Source: Mycolicibacterium litorale (GTDB lineage Bacteria; Actinomycetota; Actinomycetes; Mycobacteriales; Mycobacteriaceae). Taken from it: 64,000 bases of DNA. The translations under genes and the position numbers were made by a program. The stretch spans positions 4,960,001 to 5,024,000 of the forward strand of contig NZ_AP023287.1 of NCBI RefSeq assembly GCF_014218295.1. Reading direction: 5' to 3'. Positions within the stretch are counted from its first letter, which is position 1. Each line of letters starts with the position of its first letter. The notes under the pieces were generated by a model. The model worked only from the letters and a program-made list of their open reading frames with translations, did not search any database and was not told where the DNA came from. Below, in pieces: positions 30,443-54,655 of this stretch.

Positions 30443-30503
30443 CACCGGAAATCATCCCAGCCCAGGACGATTGGATAGCCCAAGTAACGGGTAAGTCCCC
30501 GGC

Positions 30504-31523
30504 GTGACCTTTGCGCCGATCATGACTGAACCGATGTTGCCCGACGCCCGTGGCCCGCTTTCGCTGGCCGTGGTGAACACCCTCACCGAACGCGCCCCGC
30601 GCAACCACCTGTCCCGCATCGAGGCGTCGCTCGGCGATTCCGACCCGTACGGCATCGATCTGCAGTTGGCGCTCTACGTCTGCTACGAACTGCACTACCG
30701 CGGCTTCGCCGGTGTCGACCCGAACTGGGAATGGAACCCGGGACTGCTGCACCTGCGCGGACAGATGGAGCAGTCGTTCCTCGCCGCGGTGCGCCGCGAC
30801 GTCGGGGAGATCGGCCCGGACGACACCGCCGCCGAGGAGATGGCGGCCCTCGCGATCGAACCCGTCGACGGTGAAGGCCCGTCGTACTACCTGCGCGACA
30901 AGGGCAGCTGGGAGCAGATGCGGGAGTACTTCGTGCACCGGTCGCTCTACCACCTCAAGGAAGGCGACCCGCACGCGTTTGCGATCCCCCGGCTGATCGG
31001 ACAGGCCAAGGCCTCGTTCGTCGCCGTGGAGTTCGACGAATTCGGCGGGGGCCGCGGACCGCAGCTGCACCAACAGCTGTTCGCCGATCTGATGGTGGCC
31101 GCCGACCTCGACGCGACCTACCTGGGTTACATCAACGATGTGCCCGCAGAGGCGCTGGCCGCGGTGAACCTGATGTCGATGTTCGGTCTGCACCGCTCGT
31201 TGCGCGGCGCGGCCGTCGGCCATTTCGCCTCCACCGAGATCACCTCGTCACCGGGATCGCGCAGGCTGGTCGAGGCGCTGGAGCGGATGGGCGCACCGGA
31301 CACCTGCGCGGCGTTCTTCCGCGAACACGTCGAAGCCGACGCCGTCCACGAACAGGTGGTGCGCACCGACGTGGTGGGCGATCTGGTGGCGCGGGAGCCG
31401 CAGCTCGACGCCGACGTCATCTTCGGCATCCGGGCCCACGCGCTGGTGGAGGACCGGTTGGCCGATCACCTGATGGCGTGCTGGACAGCCGGCGAGACGT
31501 CGCTACGCCGACCGCTGGTCTGA
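30504..31523 (+). CDS. Heme-oxygenase-like diiron protein (iron-containing redox enzyme family)
   Basis: This 339-residue all-helical protein fits the heme-oxygenase-like diiron (HDO) superfamily, which includes UndA, SznF and CADD. Candidate metal ligands follow family spacing: Glu176/Glu179 in VAVEFDEFGGG, His189 in QLHQQLF, Glu245 in GHFASTE and His275, Asp279, His282 in FFREHVEADAVHE. YHLKEGDPHAFAIPRL (149-163) is a conserved family segment. Members oxidise amino or fatty acids or nitrogen compounds using O2, but this one's substrate is unknown. Its 3' end overlaps the convergent CDGSH gene by 21 bases. A short in-frame alternative start at ATG 30522 exists. Confidence 0.85.
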   Translation: MTFAPIMTEPMLPDARGPLSLAVVNTLTERAPRNHLSRIEASLGDSDPYGIDLQLALYVCYELHYRGFAGVDPNWEWNPGLLHLRGQMEQSFLAAVRRDVGEIGPDDTAAEEMAALAIEPVDGEGPSYYLRDKGSWEQMREYFVHRSLYHLKEGDPHAFAIPRLIGQAKASFVAVEFDEFGGGRGPQLHQQLFADLMVAADLDATYLGYINDVPAEALAAVNLMSMFGLHRSLRGAAVGHFASTEITSSPGSRRLVEALERMGAPDTCAAFFREHVEADAVHEQVVRTDVVGDLVAREPQLDADVIFGIRAHALVEDRLADHLMACWTAGETSLRRPLV

Positions 31524-31727
31524 GGAGGCCGCGTCGGCGCCGCCACGGCGGCGCCGACGATGGCTCGTATCGCACAGCGGATAGTTCTTACTGCGTTTGC
31601 ACGCACAGATCGCGACCATGAAGCGGTCGGATTCCACCACGCTGCCGTCGGGCATCTCGATGCGGACGGGGCCCTCCACCATGATGGGCCCGCCCTGCAC
31701 CACCCGCACGGTGCGCGGTTCGGTCAC
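31503..31727 (-). CDS. CDGSH-type 2Fe-2S protein
   Basis: This 74-residue protein has the single CDGSH signature CACKRSKNYPLCDTSH: three Cys (41, 43, 52) and one His (56) ligating a 2Fe-2S cluster, here in the C-x-C-x2-S-x3-P-x-C-D-x2-H form. The N-terminal part (VVQGGPIMVEGPVRIEMPDGSVVESDRFMVAIC) is the beta-strand region of the mitoNEET-like fold. A basic RRRRRGG tail follows. It overlaps the methyltransferase by 4 bases upstream and the diiron-protein gene at its 3' end. Possible electron donor to that enzyme. Confidence 0.9.
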   Translation of the reverse strand: MTEPRTVRVVQGGPIMVEGPVRIEMPDGSVVESDRFMVAICACKRSKNYPLCDTSHRRRRRGGADAASSDQRSA

Positions 31728-32419
31728 GGTTTGTCCGCCCGGATGACCAGCAGTTCTTCCTCACGCCGGCCCGGATCCAGACGGCCCGTCTCTTCCAGCC
31801 ACTCGGCACGTGCGGTCAGCACCGGTCCGAACGGGATCCACTGCCAGGCAATGACTTCGGCGTCCAGGCCGGCGCTCGACAGCGCGGCCAGCGTACGGCG
31901 CGGATCGGCGAACTCGGACTGCACGAGCAGCAGACTGCCGCCATCGGCCAGCAGATCGGGCATGGCCGCGCACAGGGGGTCCAGGACCAGGCGGCCGTCG
32001 TAGCCGGCGTCCCACGCACGCGCCGGGCCGACAGTCGACGGCACCGGTGTGCGCTCGGCCTCGGGATCGTGCGGTACGTACGGCGGGTTGCACGTCACCA
32101 GATCGAAGGGGGCGAACTCGACCGCGCGCGCCCACGACCCCAGGTGGACGTCGACCGCGGCATCCGCGCTCACCGCGTTGCCGCGGGCACACCGCACCGC
32201 GCGCGGGCAGATGTCGAAAGCGGTCACCGACGACGCACCCTGCTGGGCGGCGTTGACCGCCACCACTCCGCTGCCGGTGCACAGGTCGGCGACCCGGCGC
32301 CCGACGGCCAGACCCGTCTTCTCCATGATGTCGATCAGCAGTTGCGAATCTTCCTGCGGGGCGTACACGCCTTCCGCCGCGACCACGCTGTCGCGCTCGT
32401 CGGTGTATGCAGTCGTCAC
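31724..32419 (-). CDS. SAM-dependent methyltransferase, HemK2/PrmC-like
   Basis: This 231-residue protein starts at GTG. Motif I is VADLCTGSGVVAVNAA, and the post-I acidic residue lies in TAFDICPRAVRCARGNA. The NPPY tetrapeptide (VTCNPPYVPHD) marks N-methyltransferases of glutamine, adenine or similar amides. It lacks the N-terminal domain of PrmC and so resembles the eukaryotic HemK2/MTQ2 form. The target could be a release factor, another protein or a small molecule. It forms an overlapping pair with the CDGSH gene. Confidence 0.85.
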   Translation of the reverse strand: MTTAYTDERDSVVAAEGVYAPQEDSQLLIDIMEKTGLAVGRRVADLCTGSGVVAVNAAQQGASSVTAFDICPRAVRCARGNAVSADAAVDVHLGSWARAVEFAPFDLVTCNPPYVPHDPEAERTPVPSTVGPARAWDAGYDGRLVLDPLCAAMPDLLADGGSLLLVQSEFADPRRTLAALSSAGLDAEVIAWQWIPFGPVLTARAEWLEETGRLDPGRREEELLVIRADKP

Positions 32420-32533
32420 ATCGGCCTCTCGACGTCAAGGGGTCATTTGCTGCGGTGATTAATGCCCTGTATCGCGATTGTTAAACCAGCACATGCCGTT
32501 TGCGCCGCTGTTAGGGCGGGCACCCGACGGGGC

Positions 32534-33187
32534 GTGAATGTCTCAGATCTCCTCGCGCTCCCGGTCGAAGTCGGCGCCGCGGTGCGCCAGCGCAGGCTGT
32601 TCCACCCCGCCGGGGTGCTGGCGCGTGGCCGCATCGAGCGGATCGCTCCACCGGGCCAGGGTCTGCCGATCGAGGACGGTGACGTCATCGGCCGGGTGTC
32701 GAAGGCGGTCGGGCTGCCGGGGTCGGTGCCGGACGTCGCCGGTCTGGCCTGGCGGATGACGATCGACGACCGCCCGTGGGACGTGCTGCTCGCGACCACC
32801 GCGCTCAACCGGTTCCTGCTGCTGCCCACCACGTCGTGGGACAACACCACCTACTCCAGCCTGATGCCGCTGCGCTACCAAGGCGGTGTGTGGTGGTTGC
32901 GCGCTCGGCTCACGACGAAACTCGACCGCCCGGGCCTGTCGCTGGACAGCATCACCGACCGGCTGGGACGGGGCGACCTCGAGTACAGCGTCGAGCAAGC
33001 CGCGGGCACAGGCCAGTTCGGGCCGCTGGCGCGGCTGACCCTGTCCGAGGTGATCCCGCCCGACCACGATCTGTCGTTCGATCCCACCCTCAACACCGCG
33101 CCCGGGGTGGCGCTGACACCAGGCTGGCTGACGGACTTCCGCCGAGCGGCCTACCGTCGCAGCCGCGAGGGCCGCGACGCGGAGTAG
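32534..33187 (+). CDS. Unrecognised conserved protein
   Basis: The protein is about 217 residues from GTG 32534; the frame is open back to 32462, but no better start is seen. Sequence features are GRIERIAPPGQGLPIEDGDVIGRVSKAVGLPGSVPDVAGLAWRM, PWDVLLATTALNRFLLLPTTSW and a C-terminal TLNTAPGVALTPGWLTDFRRAAYRRSREGRDAE. No signal peptide or membrane helix is present. The pattern of a Gly-Arg-rich loop followed by DLLLAT-like strand is vaguely reminiscent of catalase-fold relatives, but I cannot assign a family. It is divergent from the methyltransferase and 3 bases from the convergent small acidic gene. Confidence 0.65.
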   Translation: MNVSDLLALPVEVGAAVRQRRLFHPAGVLARGRIERIAPPGQGLPIEDGDVIGRVSKAVGLPGSVPDVAGLAWRMTIDDRPWDVLLATTALNRFLLLPTTSWDNTTYSSLMPLRYQGGVWWLRARLTTKLDRPGLSLDSITDRLGRGDLEYSVEQAAGTGQFGPLARLTLSEVIPPDHDLSFDPTLNTAPGVALTPGWLTDFRRAAYRRSREGRDAE

Positions 33188-52124: not shown

Positions 52125-53783
52125 TCACCCGGCGACCACCACATGCTCGTCGGGCACACAGTGCGTCATCGTCAGACCCTCGACGTCACGCGGCCCGTTC
52201 TTGCCGAGGTTCGCGCGGCGCTGCTCTTCCTCGTCGGACAGCGTCTGCGATTTCAGCGGCTCCAGGTGGCGTACGTCGTCGGGTGAGATGCCCAGACCCT
52301 CGCCGACGCGCAGACCCAGCTCGTCGTCGCACATCAGGAAGTGCCAGACCATCCGCTCCTGCACCTCGCGCACGGCCTCGGAGATGTTGGTGACCAGGTT
52401 GAGCACCAGGTCGTCCTTCTCCCACTGGTCCATCAGCTGATAGCGCTGGCCGGCCTGGGTGTAGTCGTTGGTGCGCGGGATGCGTTTGCGGGTCAGCCTG
52501 CCGCGGATCTCCGGGCCCACCTCGTCATGGGTGGGGTACTGCGCCTCCCGCAGTCCGCCGGTGATCGAGGGCTCGTAGTTGACGTGGGGGTTCGCACCGG
52601 TGTTGTCGACGTGGTACTGCATCATGCCGCCCTGCTGGTTCGTCGACACGGTGGCGTTCTTGGCCTGGTTGACGGGCAGTTGCAGGTAGTTGGGTCCCAC
52701 GCGGTAGCGCTGGGTGTCCGAGTAGGAGAACGTGCGCCCGACGAGCATCTTGTCGTCGGAGAACTCCAGCCCGTCGACCAGCACGCCGGTGCCGAACGCG
52801 ATCTGTTCGTTCTCGGCGAAATGGTTGGAGACGTTGCGGTTGAGCACCATCGTGCCGACGTGCTTGGGCGGGAACTCGTTCTCGGGCCACACCTTGGTGT
52901 CGTCGAGCGGGTCGAAGTCGAGTTCGGCGTGCTCGTCGTCGGACATCAGCTGCACCAGCAGATCCCACTGCGGGTAGTCGCCGGCCTCGATCGCCTCGTA
53001 GATGTCCTTGCTGGCGTGGCCGAGGTCCTGGGCCTGGATCGCGGCCGCATCGGCCTCGGTGAGGCTCTTCACGCCGATCTTCGGCATCCAATGGTACTTC
53101 ACCAGATGCGTCTCGCCGTCGGCGTTGACCCAGCGGTAGGTGTTGACGCCGAAACCCTGCATGGTGCGGTAGTTCGCCGGGATGCCGCGCGGTGAGAACA
53201 GGTTCACCAGCATGTGCATCGACTCCGGTGTCTGCGACATGAAGTCGAAGATCCGGGCGGGTTCCTGGCGGAACGTCACCGGGTCGGGTTTGAGGGAGTG
53301 GATGACGTCGGGGAACTTCACCGCGTCGCGGATGAAGAACACGCCGATGTTGTTGCCGACGAGATCCCAGTTGCCGTCCTCGGTGTAGAACTTCACCGCG
53401 AAGCCGCGGGGGTCGCGGGCGGTCTCCGAGGAGTCGCGGCCGCCGATCACGCTGGAGAGCCGGATCGCCAGGTCCGTGCGCTTACCGGGTGTCGCGAAGA
53501 TCTTGGCGCGGGTGTAGTTCTCGATCGGCTCGTCACCCCATTTGCCGGTGGTCTCGAAGTAGCCGTAGGCGACGAAACCGCGGGCGTGCACGACCCGCTC
53601 GGGGATCCGTTCCCGGTCGAAATGGCTGATCTTCTCGAGGAAGTGGTAGTTCTCCAGAGTGGCCGGACCGCGCGCGCCGACGGTGCGCTGGTTCTGGTTG
53701 TCGTAGATCGGATGGCCCTGGCGATCAGTCAGGATGTCGCGGTTGTCGCCGGGGTCGGGTGGCTGTGAGGACACGTCGGTCAT
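52125..53783 (-). CDS. katA: Heme catalase (clade 3-like, KatA)
   Basis: This 552-residue protein degrades hydrogen peroxide. The distal His is in [16 protein letters not shown], the distal Asn in [15 protein letters not shown], and the proximal heme Tyr in [29 protein letters not shown]-binding-region residues ([16 protein letters not shown]) are also present. The start [40 protein letters not shown] follows an AAGGAAA site, and the longer upstream frame is excluded. C-terminal residues 500-552 are hydrophilic. It is a second catalase besides the partial gene at the window's right edge. It converges with the frameshifted transporter, 6 bases apart. Confidence 0.95.
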
Positions 53784-53851
53784 GGGGTTTCCTTCGTCGG
53801 TCGGGCGGCCGGGCTGGGCCGATCGCCCCGCCGTACCCGCCGCCCGCGGCG

Positions 53852-54655
53852 TCAAACGGTGACCGACGCGCCGCGGTCGAGTTCGATGACCCGTTCGGCC
53901 AGACCGCGTCGCTTCATCTCCTCGAGGAAGTCCGACAGAGGCGACGCGAACACCCCGTAGTCGTTGAAGTGAACGGGGATGATCTTCGGCAGGTCAAGGA
54001 GTTCCGCGGCGCCCGCACCCTGTCTGCCGTCCATCGTCACGGTCAGTCCGAACGGCAGGTGCCTGCCGAACGGCAGCCGGGTGCCGCCGAGGTGCAGGAC
54101 GCCGGCGTCGATGTCGGGGAAGCGGCGGGGGATCTCGTTCAGCTCCTCGATCAGCAGGGTGTCGCCGGAGATGTAGAGCCGCCGCGTCGGCCCGTCGGCG
54201 CCGGAGACCTCCACCATCGAACCCATCACCGGCGGCAGGAACCGGTTGATCGGGGTGGGCGCGTGCCGTCCCGGCAGCGCGGTGACGGTGACGGTGGTGG
54301 TGCCCTTGGTGATCGTGTGCCGCTGCCACGTCTCGAGCGCGACGGACTGGGCGAAACCGCGGTGGCGCAGCCGTTTGGCCGCGTGCGGTGTGGTCAGCAC
54401 CGGCAGCGAGCGGTCGAGCCCGTTCTGCGCCACCCGGTCCCAGTGGTCACCGTGCATGTGGGACAGCAACACCGCGTCCAGCGGCGGCAGCCGGTCGATG
54501 TCGAGCGCCGGATCGTGTAACCGCTTCGACAGCAGCCCGTAGCCCAGATAGGCGTGTTCGCCAGCGTGCAGGAAGTTCGGGTCCGTCAGGAGGGTGATGC
54601 CGTCGGTGGTGAGCAGCGTGGTGGCGTTGCCGATGAACGTGACGGTGATGTCCAT
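53852..54655 (-). CDS. UlaG-like metallo-beta-lactamase-fold hydrolase
   Basis: This 267-residue protein has the metal motif [13 protein letters not shown] and the UlaG-type start [29 protein letters not shown]. Further candidates are GRHAP, YISGDT and [10 protein letters not shown]. Related proteins include UlaG (ascorbate lactonase) and NAPE-PLD-like phosphodiesterases, so lactone or phosphodiester hydrolysis is likely, but the substrate is not known. It lies 68 bases upstream of katA on the same strand, possibly in one transcript. The next gene to the right is divergent. Confidence 0.87.

Follow-up and report, generated by a model that had tools for sequence, protein, structure and literature searches.

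A heme-oxygenase-like diiron protein and a CDGSH iron–sulfur protein as a recurrent actinobacterial gene pair, with SigF-type promoter-like sites in mycobacteria

Three interlocked genes in Mycolicibacterium litorale

The window analysed here is a stretch of 64,000 nucleotides (nt) from the 5.63-Mb single-contig genome of the mycobacterium Mycolicibacterium litorale, and our subject is three interlocked genes in it, encoding a heme-oxygenase-like diiron protein (HDO), a CDGSH [2Fe-2S] protein and a HemK2/MTQ2-type methyltransferase (Table 1). A sequence-only reading had proposed this trio as an undescribed system; the open reading frames and profile matches to PF14518, PF09360 and TIGR00537 confirm all three genes, and the methyltransferase–CDGSH pair does reach the 3′ end of the HDO gene, where the CDGSH gene overlaps it tail-to-tail by 21 nt. 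The methyltransferase and CDGSH genes overlap as well, by four letters that are GTGA, with GTG as the CDGSH start, and not ATGA as had been read. The unit at the core is the HDO–CDGSH pair, not the trio.

Table 1. Features of the window (positions counted from its first letter; aa, amino acids).
Feature	Position	Strand	Details
HDO gene	30504..31523	+	339 aa; PF14518 187.6 bits, cut-off 28.9; listed start GTG, alternative start ATG at 30522, six codons inside
CDGSH [2Fe-2S] protein gene	31503..31727	−	74 aa, GTG start; PF09360 62.5 bits, cut-off 29.5
HemK2/MTQ2-type methyltransferase gene	31724..32419	−	231 aa, NPPY at residue 111; TIGR00537 95.9 bits, cut-off 87
SigF-type promoter-like site before the HDO gene	30469..30493	+	GATT-N16-GGGTA (relaxed); ends 10 nt before GTG
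SigF-type promoter-like site of the methyltransferase–CDGSH operon	32463..32486	−	GTTT-N15-GGGCA (strict)
Second, divergent SigF-type site	32498..32522	+	Same gap; faces the gene at 32534, ends 11 nt before its start
Gene divergent from the methyltransferase gene	32534..33187	+	217 aa
Catalase gene	52125..53855	−	PF00199; true start probably ATG 53783, downstream of the listed TTG
Strict SigF-type site at the catalase gene	53834..53857		

Metal ligands and predicted fold

The three-histidine, three-carboxylate ligand set of the HDO superfamily is present as Glu153, Glu179, His189, His275, Asp279 and His282. In an alignment of 62 rows (60 loci, with the window entered twice) each of these residues is kept in 61 rows and Glu245 in all 62, and the spacing pattern of the ligands is kept in 80/80 loci of our mycobacterial set (the best 80 of 259). 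Six of the candidate ligands named from the sequence alone (Glu179, His189, Glu245, His275, Asp279 and His282) are thus conserved, Glu176 is not, being Gln in 35 rows, Glu in 25 and Ala in 2, and the first ligand, Glu153, had been overlooked. Glu245 aligns with SznF, whose fourth carboxylate ligand we take to be Glu281, and also with a Glu of HrmI. Beyond the ligands, the conserved charged residues Arg85, Glu89, Arg163, Lys169, Arg231 and Arg261 suggest that a polar substrate is bound.

The AlphaFold model of the HDO protein (predicted local distance difference test score 87.7) is a heme-oxygenase-like helical bundle whose best fold matches are the N-oxygenases HrmI, SznF and RohS; the nearest solved relatives are HrmI (20% identity) and SznF (16%). 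A Pfam scan of the 339-aa protein returned PF14518 alone, with no C-terminal cupin domain. Separately, a second, weaker HDO match (121 bits) lies in the same genome (G000, C1:1163072-1163596), with no CDGSH match nearby.

In the CDGSH protein the four ligands claimed to be intact, Cys41, Cys43, Cys52 and His56, are all present, in a single motif CxCx2Sx3PxCDxSH. The signature itself reads CDTSH, Thr replacing a Gly that is not a ligand, and the nearest solved relatives are CISD-type proteins. Bacterial CDGSH proteins are not known to have a defined catalytic role. The type 4 motif has the form CxCx2(S/T)x3PxCDG(S/A/T)H, with three Cys and one His. Type 4 is the main actinobacterial CDGSH type (PMC3174974; papers given by PMC number are cited for those portions of their text that were available).

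Co-occurrence of HDO and CDGSH genes

Profile matches to CDGSH were found in 146, and to PF14518 in 155, of the 246 genomes sampled from the class, and pairing was counted over 150 HDO and 150 CDGSH rows, so that the counts in this paragraph hold among the matches listed. The HDO subfamily of interest comprises 126 matches of at least 156 bits in 124 genomes. A CDGSH gene lies within 3 kb of 103 of these 126 loci, in many families (100 by listed coordinates and three, in G154, G051 and G115, from reading the DNA); in five more it lies elsewhere, on another contig (G118), off the HDO contig (G043), or 4.8 kb (G205), 7.7 kb (G093) or 17 kb (G240) away. None of the 24 weaker HDO matches is near a CDGSH gene, and the linkage is therefore specific to the subfamily at or above 156 bits. 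From the margins, about 74 genomes would be expected to have both genes; the observed number is 106 (Fisher P = 1e-17, uncorrected for kinship). The CDGSH gene may share the strand of HDO, lying either downstream or upstream of it, or may be convergent with it or divergent upstream of it, with or without the methyltransferase. Co-occurrence beyond close relatives, on which the sequence-only reading had staked its proposal, is therefore what we find for HDO and CDGSH, across many families and several gene orders.

The pair also travels on plasmids. Thirteen actinobacterial plasmid records carry a full or partial HDO match (H1–H13 of 18 hits), and 11 of them, two from one strain, have CDGSH within about 1 kb. 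On Curtobacterium pW21 the HDO gene is followed by CDGSH with a 4-nt overlap, and on Streptomyces p65_CHABEC the order is methyltransferase, CDGSH, HDO, the last two again overlapping by 4 nt, with SigB/F/G genes flanking both sides; Streptomyces NBC_00984 and Kitasatospora NBC_00039 carry the unit with HemK2/MTQ2 annotated. An apparent CDGSH–HDO fusion in G216 (L183:4102-5499), where a linker rich in Pro and Ala joins the two domains in a frame free of stops, was set aside as evidence because NCBI calls only a 345-aa HDO (P0121) there.

The HemK2-type methyltransferase is restricted to a single HDO clade

All three genes are found in 78/80 mycobacterial loci (L010 and the short locus L079 lack the full trio), with the methyltransferase and CDGSH genes always after HDO on the opposite strand. 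The nearest solved structure of the methyltransferase is N6AMT1/HemK2 (E = 5e-12). In the wider sample, a CDGSH gene lies within 1 kb of 43 of the 47 TIGR00537 matches considered (45 above the cut-off and two below it, the remaining below-cut-off rows being left out). In a tree of 61 HDO rows, built by a quick method and with row L145 on a very long branch, the methyltransferase-bearing loci fall in one clade of 27 rows, supported at 100 in the Shimodaira–Hasegawa-like approximate likelihood-ratio test (SH-aLRT); 22 of the 27 carry the methyltransferase, and the families represented (in our labels) are f1, f13, f17, f19 and f29. The CDTSH signature marks this clade (CDG[ST]H in f13), the other loci having CDG[ST]H or near forms. 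A separate HDO group of seven rows (SH-aLRT 85) has no CDGSH gene in the fetched stretch. Rows of f17, f29 and f1 are scattered over the tree, which suggests that the unit has been transferred.

We therefore rejected the trio as a unit, the HemK2-type methyltransferase being limited to one HDO clade: its co-occurrence with the pair is real, in the mycobacterial loci and across the five families of that clade, and is narrower than that of HDO with CDGSH. Other methyltransferases lie beside HDO in f27, f17, f20 and f18, which hints, as a lead, that methylation partners recur. Three f27 loci (L164, L165 and L166) have a different methyltransferase, with a DPPW/DPPY motif and PF05175, beside HDO–CDGSH; three f17/f20 loci have a class I methyltransferase (cluster F24) beside the pair; and a third family, cluster F19, in which the two scanned members gave no more than weak Pfam matches under the cut-off, adjoins HDO in four loci of f18 that have no CDGSH gene.

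SigF-type promoter-like sites and stress regulators

The SigF consensus is of the GTTT-N14..19-GGGTA type (PMC4694148). We counted as strict a site GTTT-N14..18-GGG[TCA]A lying up to 150 nt upstream of a start or up to 20 nt inside it, and as relaxed a site built from G[TGA]T[TG] and GGG[TC]A. A strict site precedes the methyltransferase gene in 76/78 mycobacterial loci, compared with 44 of 3085 windows drawn at random from these loci, and the operon-internal CDGSH gene in 1/78. For HDO the strict site is present in 53/80 loci, and a strict or relaxed one in 72/80, the relaxed form alone occurring in 181/3085 random windows. The window as a whole holds five strict sites against 1.75 expected, a number reached in 4 of 100 shuffles. 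These sites, and the stress context with them, had escaped the sequence-only reading. The gene that diverges from the methyltransferase and has a SigF-type site of its own occurs in 17/80 mycobacterial loci; its product has no NCBIfam match and its longer open reading frame no Pfam match.

Neighbourhoods were examined in 61 loci, the window and 60 others picked to cover varied families and layouts. In 12/61 loci a SigB/F/G-cluster sigma-factor gene is present no further than 6.5 kb away, where 0.80 would be expected from per-genome counts. Those counts took matches at E ≤ 1e-25 among at most 11 scored candidates per genome, so that the figure of 0.80 is too low where genomes are largest. Eleven of the 12 are above the TIGR02980 cut-off (L166 is not shown at the E 1e-60 limit), and the 61 loci are not independent, L151/L181 and L175/L176 being close kin. 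A Pfam census restricted to loci without the HemK2 methyltransferase found, among 149 genes at most two places from the unit, sigma-70 region 4 (PF08281) seven times, response regulators five times, and ANTAR and STAS three times each; among 140 genes four or five places off, PF08281 occurred twice, and response regulator, ANTAR and STAS fell outside the 25 families shown.

Several neighbours are recorded as observations in their own right. A dimethylargininase and a YbdK-type ligase stand immediately upstream of HDO in a Kitasatospora locus (L209:7121-7942), the dimethylargininase being absent beside HDO from the other fetched loci. Downstream of HDO and in the same orientation, L152, L196, L198 and L170 have a glycosyltransferase-2-like frame, the 3′ portion of which lies antisense over the CDGSH gene in L152, L196 and L198. 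Gas vesicle gene clusters are a few genes from the HDO–CDGSH unit in L145, L151, L160, L181 and L206. A link to mycothiol dehydrogenase (cluster F3, 12 loci) was dropped, the start sequences being those of mixed alcohol dehydrogenases; L147, the only one scanned, was confirmed.

Likely orthologues in the SigF regulon of M. smegmatis

Published data on M. smegmatis bear on the same genes. In a sigF mutant the log2 changes (exponential/stationary phase) are −6.17/−5.69 for MSMEG_1771, −5.91/−6.43 for MSMEG_1772 and −5.98/−4.09 for MSMEG_1773, with SigF promoters 29 nt before MSMEG_1771 and 11 nt before MSMEG_1773 and a SigF site for MSMEG_1772 at 696 (PMC4694148). The 231-codon methyltransferase gene, stop included, is 696 nt long. 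The regulon table labels MSMEG_1771 “Methylase, putative” and the others “Conserved hypothetical protein” (PMC4694148). By eye, the promoter letters given in PMC5445863 resemble the sites of the M. porcinum locus (L080), which also has an L-lysine 6-aminotransferase gene (TIGR03251), and MSMEG_1764 is apparently an L-lysine 6-aminotransferase (PMC4726150). From promoter form, gene length and synteny, MSMEG_1771–1773 are likely the M. smegmatis orthologues of the trio. The spray-drying paper (PMC5445863) also places MSMEG_1770 to 1774 among the genes changed in log phase.

Within the literature searched the system is indeed undescribed, but its likely M. smegmatis orthologues are already tabulated in the SigF regulon. 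Literature searches, which covered few subscription journals, returned no paper joining CDGSH, heme oxygenase-like and diiron, and none joining CDGSH, sigma factor and Streptomyces. CDGSH with Mycobacterium smegmatis yielded a single paper, on TSPO in Bacillus cereus, and within the PF14518 literature the HDO–CDGSH pair is in no title or opening part of an abstract.

Proposed function and alternatives

We propose, with a confidence that stops just short of even, that the genes form a general-stress module of actinobacteria, consisting of a diiron oxygenase with a [2Fe-2S] partner of its own, to which a methyltransferase may be added. SigF, or a relative of the SigB/F/G group, would turn on an HDO that has the N-oxygenase fold of SznF, HrmI and RohS, and with it CDGSH, which most likely hands single electrons to the diiron site, restoring the diferrous state at every turnover. 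Since the predicted fold resembles N-oxygenases, HDO would probably oxygenate the nitrogen of an amine or guanidine group in a small molecule that is produced under stress, presumably to the benefit of the stressed cell, and in the one clade the added HemK2-type methyltransferase probably methylates substrate or product. Electron donation seems to us the simplest reason for a pair that stays fixed while its gene order changes freely.

HDO enzymes need electrons. The sequence-only reading had already named the CDGSH protein as a plausible redox partner, an idea with good grounds, and had suggested that the methyltransferase could act on the product or on a protein. The portions available of a review on them name no native donor (PMC13108848). 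That NEET-type CDGSH proteins are dedicated electron donors of a widespread, O2-activating HDO clade of actinobacteria is a claim that we hold tentatively and judge somewhat more apt to fail than to stand. If true, it would give the HDO superfamily its first known native redox partner and bacterial CDGSH proteins their first defined catalytic job, serving the general stress response rather than an antibiotic cluster. The actinobacterial pair behind mycobacterial stress promoters would make both the HDO donor and the CDGSH role testable with small soluble proteins, and would give a function to genes that depend strongly on SigF and are at present annotated as hypothetical.

Several points weigh against this interpretation. 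Electron transfer and the substrate are read from sequence and a structural model, and nothing recognisable as a dedicated biosynthetic cluster surrounds the fetched loci. The position of Glu245 is also Glu in HrmI, which is counted as a site of three histidines and three carboxylates (3H/3C; PMC13108848), clouding a reading of four carboxylates (3H/4C) for the window protein. The genomes of 18 of the 126 HDO loci, 15 of them of family f18, have no CDGSH match, and of the 139 genomes for which CDGSH coordinates are listed, 37 have no high-scoring HDO, so that any mutual need is not absolute. In the window itself the site before HDO has the relaxed form, and this form is commoner by chance. The promoter signal is weaker outside mycobacteria, in a 60-locus count that contains some f1 loci: strict sites occur at 17/88 leading genes compared with 33/752 other genes, and at 0/35 unit-internal genes. 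Finally, the M. smegmatis promoter 26-mer is absent from 396/396 genomes of the genus, and the orthology is read from promoter form, gene length and synteny.

The main rival, unlikely in our judgement, makes the pair a stress-time scavenger in the style of rubrerythrin and rubredoxin: CDGSH would still feed electrons, and the diiron site would reduce H2O2 or O2 without any small-molecule product. It ranks as such because DtpC of Acinetobacter baumannii, an HDO-domain protein whose operon includes katE, keeps H2O2 down in dried cells, with three ligand mutants losing protection (PMC13232832), because 3/61 loci have a catalase gene (PF00199) at most 6.5 kb from HDO, and because a strict SigF-type site lies at the 5′ end of the window's catalase gene, about 20 kb from HDO. 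The closest folds of the HDO model, however, are N-oxygenases, DtpC is likened to it by description, and the conserved charged residues suggest a bound polar substrate.

Quite unlikely, too, is a role in which CDGSH passes no electrons and instead gives iron or an Fe–S cluster, or senses redox, for the loading of a labile diiron site. The diiron sites of HDO are described as labile (PMC13108848), and the lability of NEET [2Fe-2S] clusters is named in the title of PMC6006223. Against this, the 18 HDO loci in genomes without a CDGSH match argue that loading does not always depend on CDGSH. The characterised HDOs, moreover, have to our knowledge no CDGSH-like partner. We think it improbable, lastly, that the two genes are separate members of SigF stress-gene islands, co-regulated and doing no joint work. 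Their neighbourhoods do hold stress regulators and gas vesicle genes, and some records universal stress or catalase genes, but the pair persists while other neighbours differ between families, and its 4-nt overlap is found in both orders.

Comparison with known systems

HemK2/MTQ2 enzymes (N6AMT1) methylate a release-factor Gln with a Trm112-like partner; the methyltransferase here matches the same TIGR00537 above the cut-off and has the NPPY motif, whereas its genomic partner is CDGSH–HDO. SznF, the streptozotocin N-oxygenase, is an HDO with a 3H/4C site; the window protein differs in its missing cupin domain and distant sequence, and stress promoters and a CDGSH neighbour replace the natural-product cluster. 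HrmI, the other near relative, is a lysine N-oxygenase that acts in hormaomycin biosynthesis, and the HDO review assigns it to the 3H/3C group (PMC13108848). DtpC is likewise an HDO-domain protein with a stress role, with katE in its operon; its relatives are reported from Acinetobacter, Stutzerimonas and Pseudomonas, and neither CDGSH nor iron–sulfur is mentioned in the paper (PMC13232832). The CDGSH protein shares the single motif and an above-cut-off PF09360 match with bacterial type 4 proteins, whereas the members of the methyltransferase clade read CDTSH and adjoin a diiron enzyme gene. Closest to the window are MSMEG_1771–1773 of M. smegmatis, which share the promoter form, the gene length and a nearby lysine aminotransferase gene, and which are annotated merely as a methylase and conserved hypothetical proteins.
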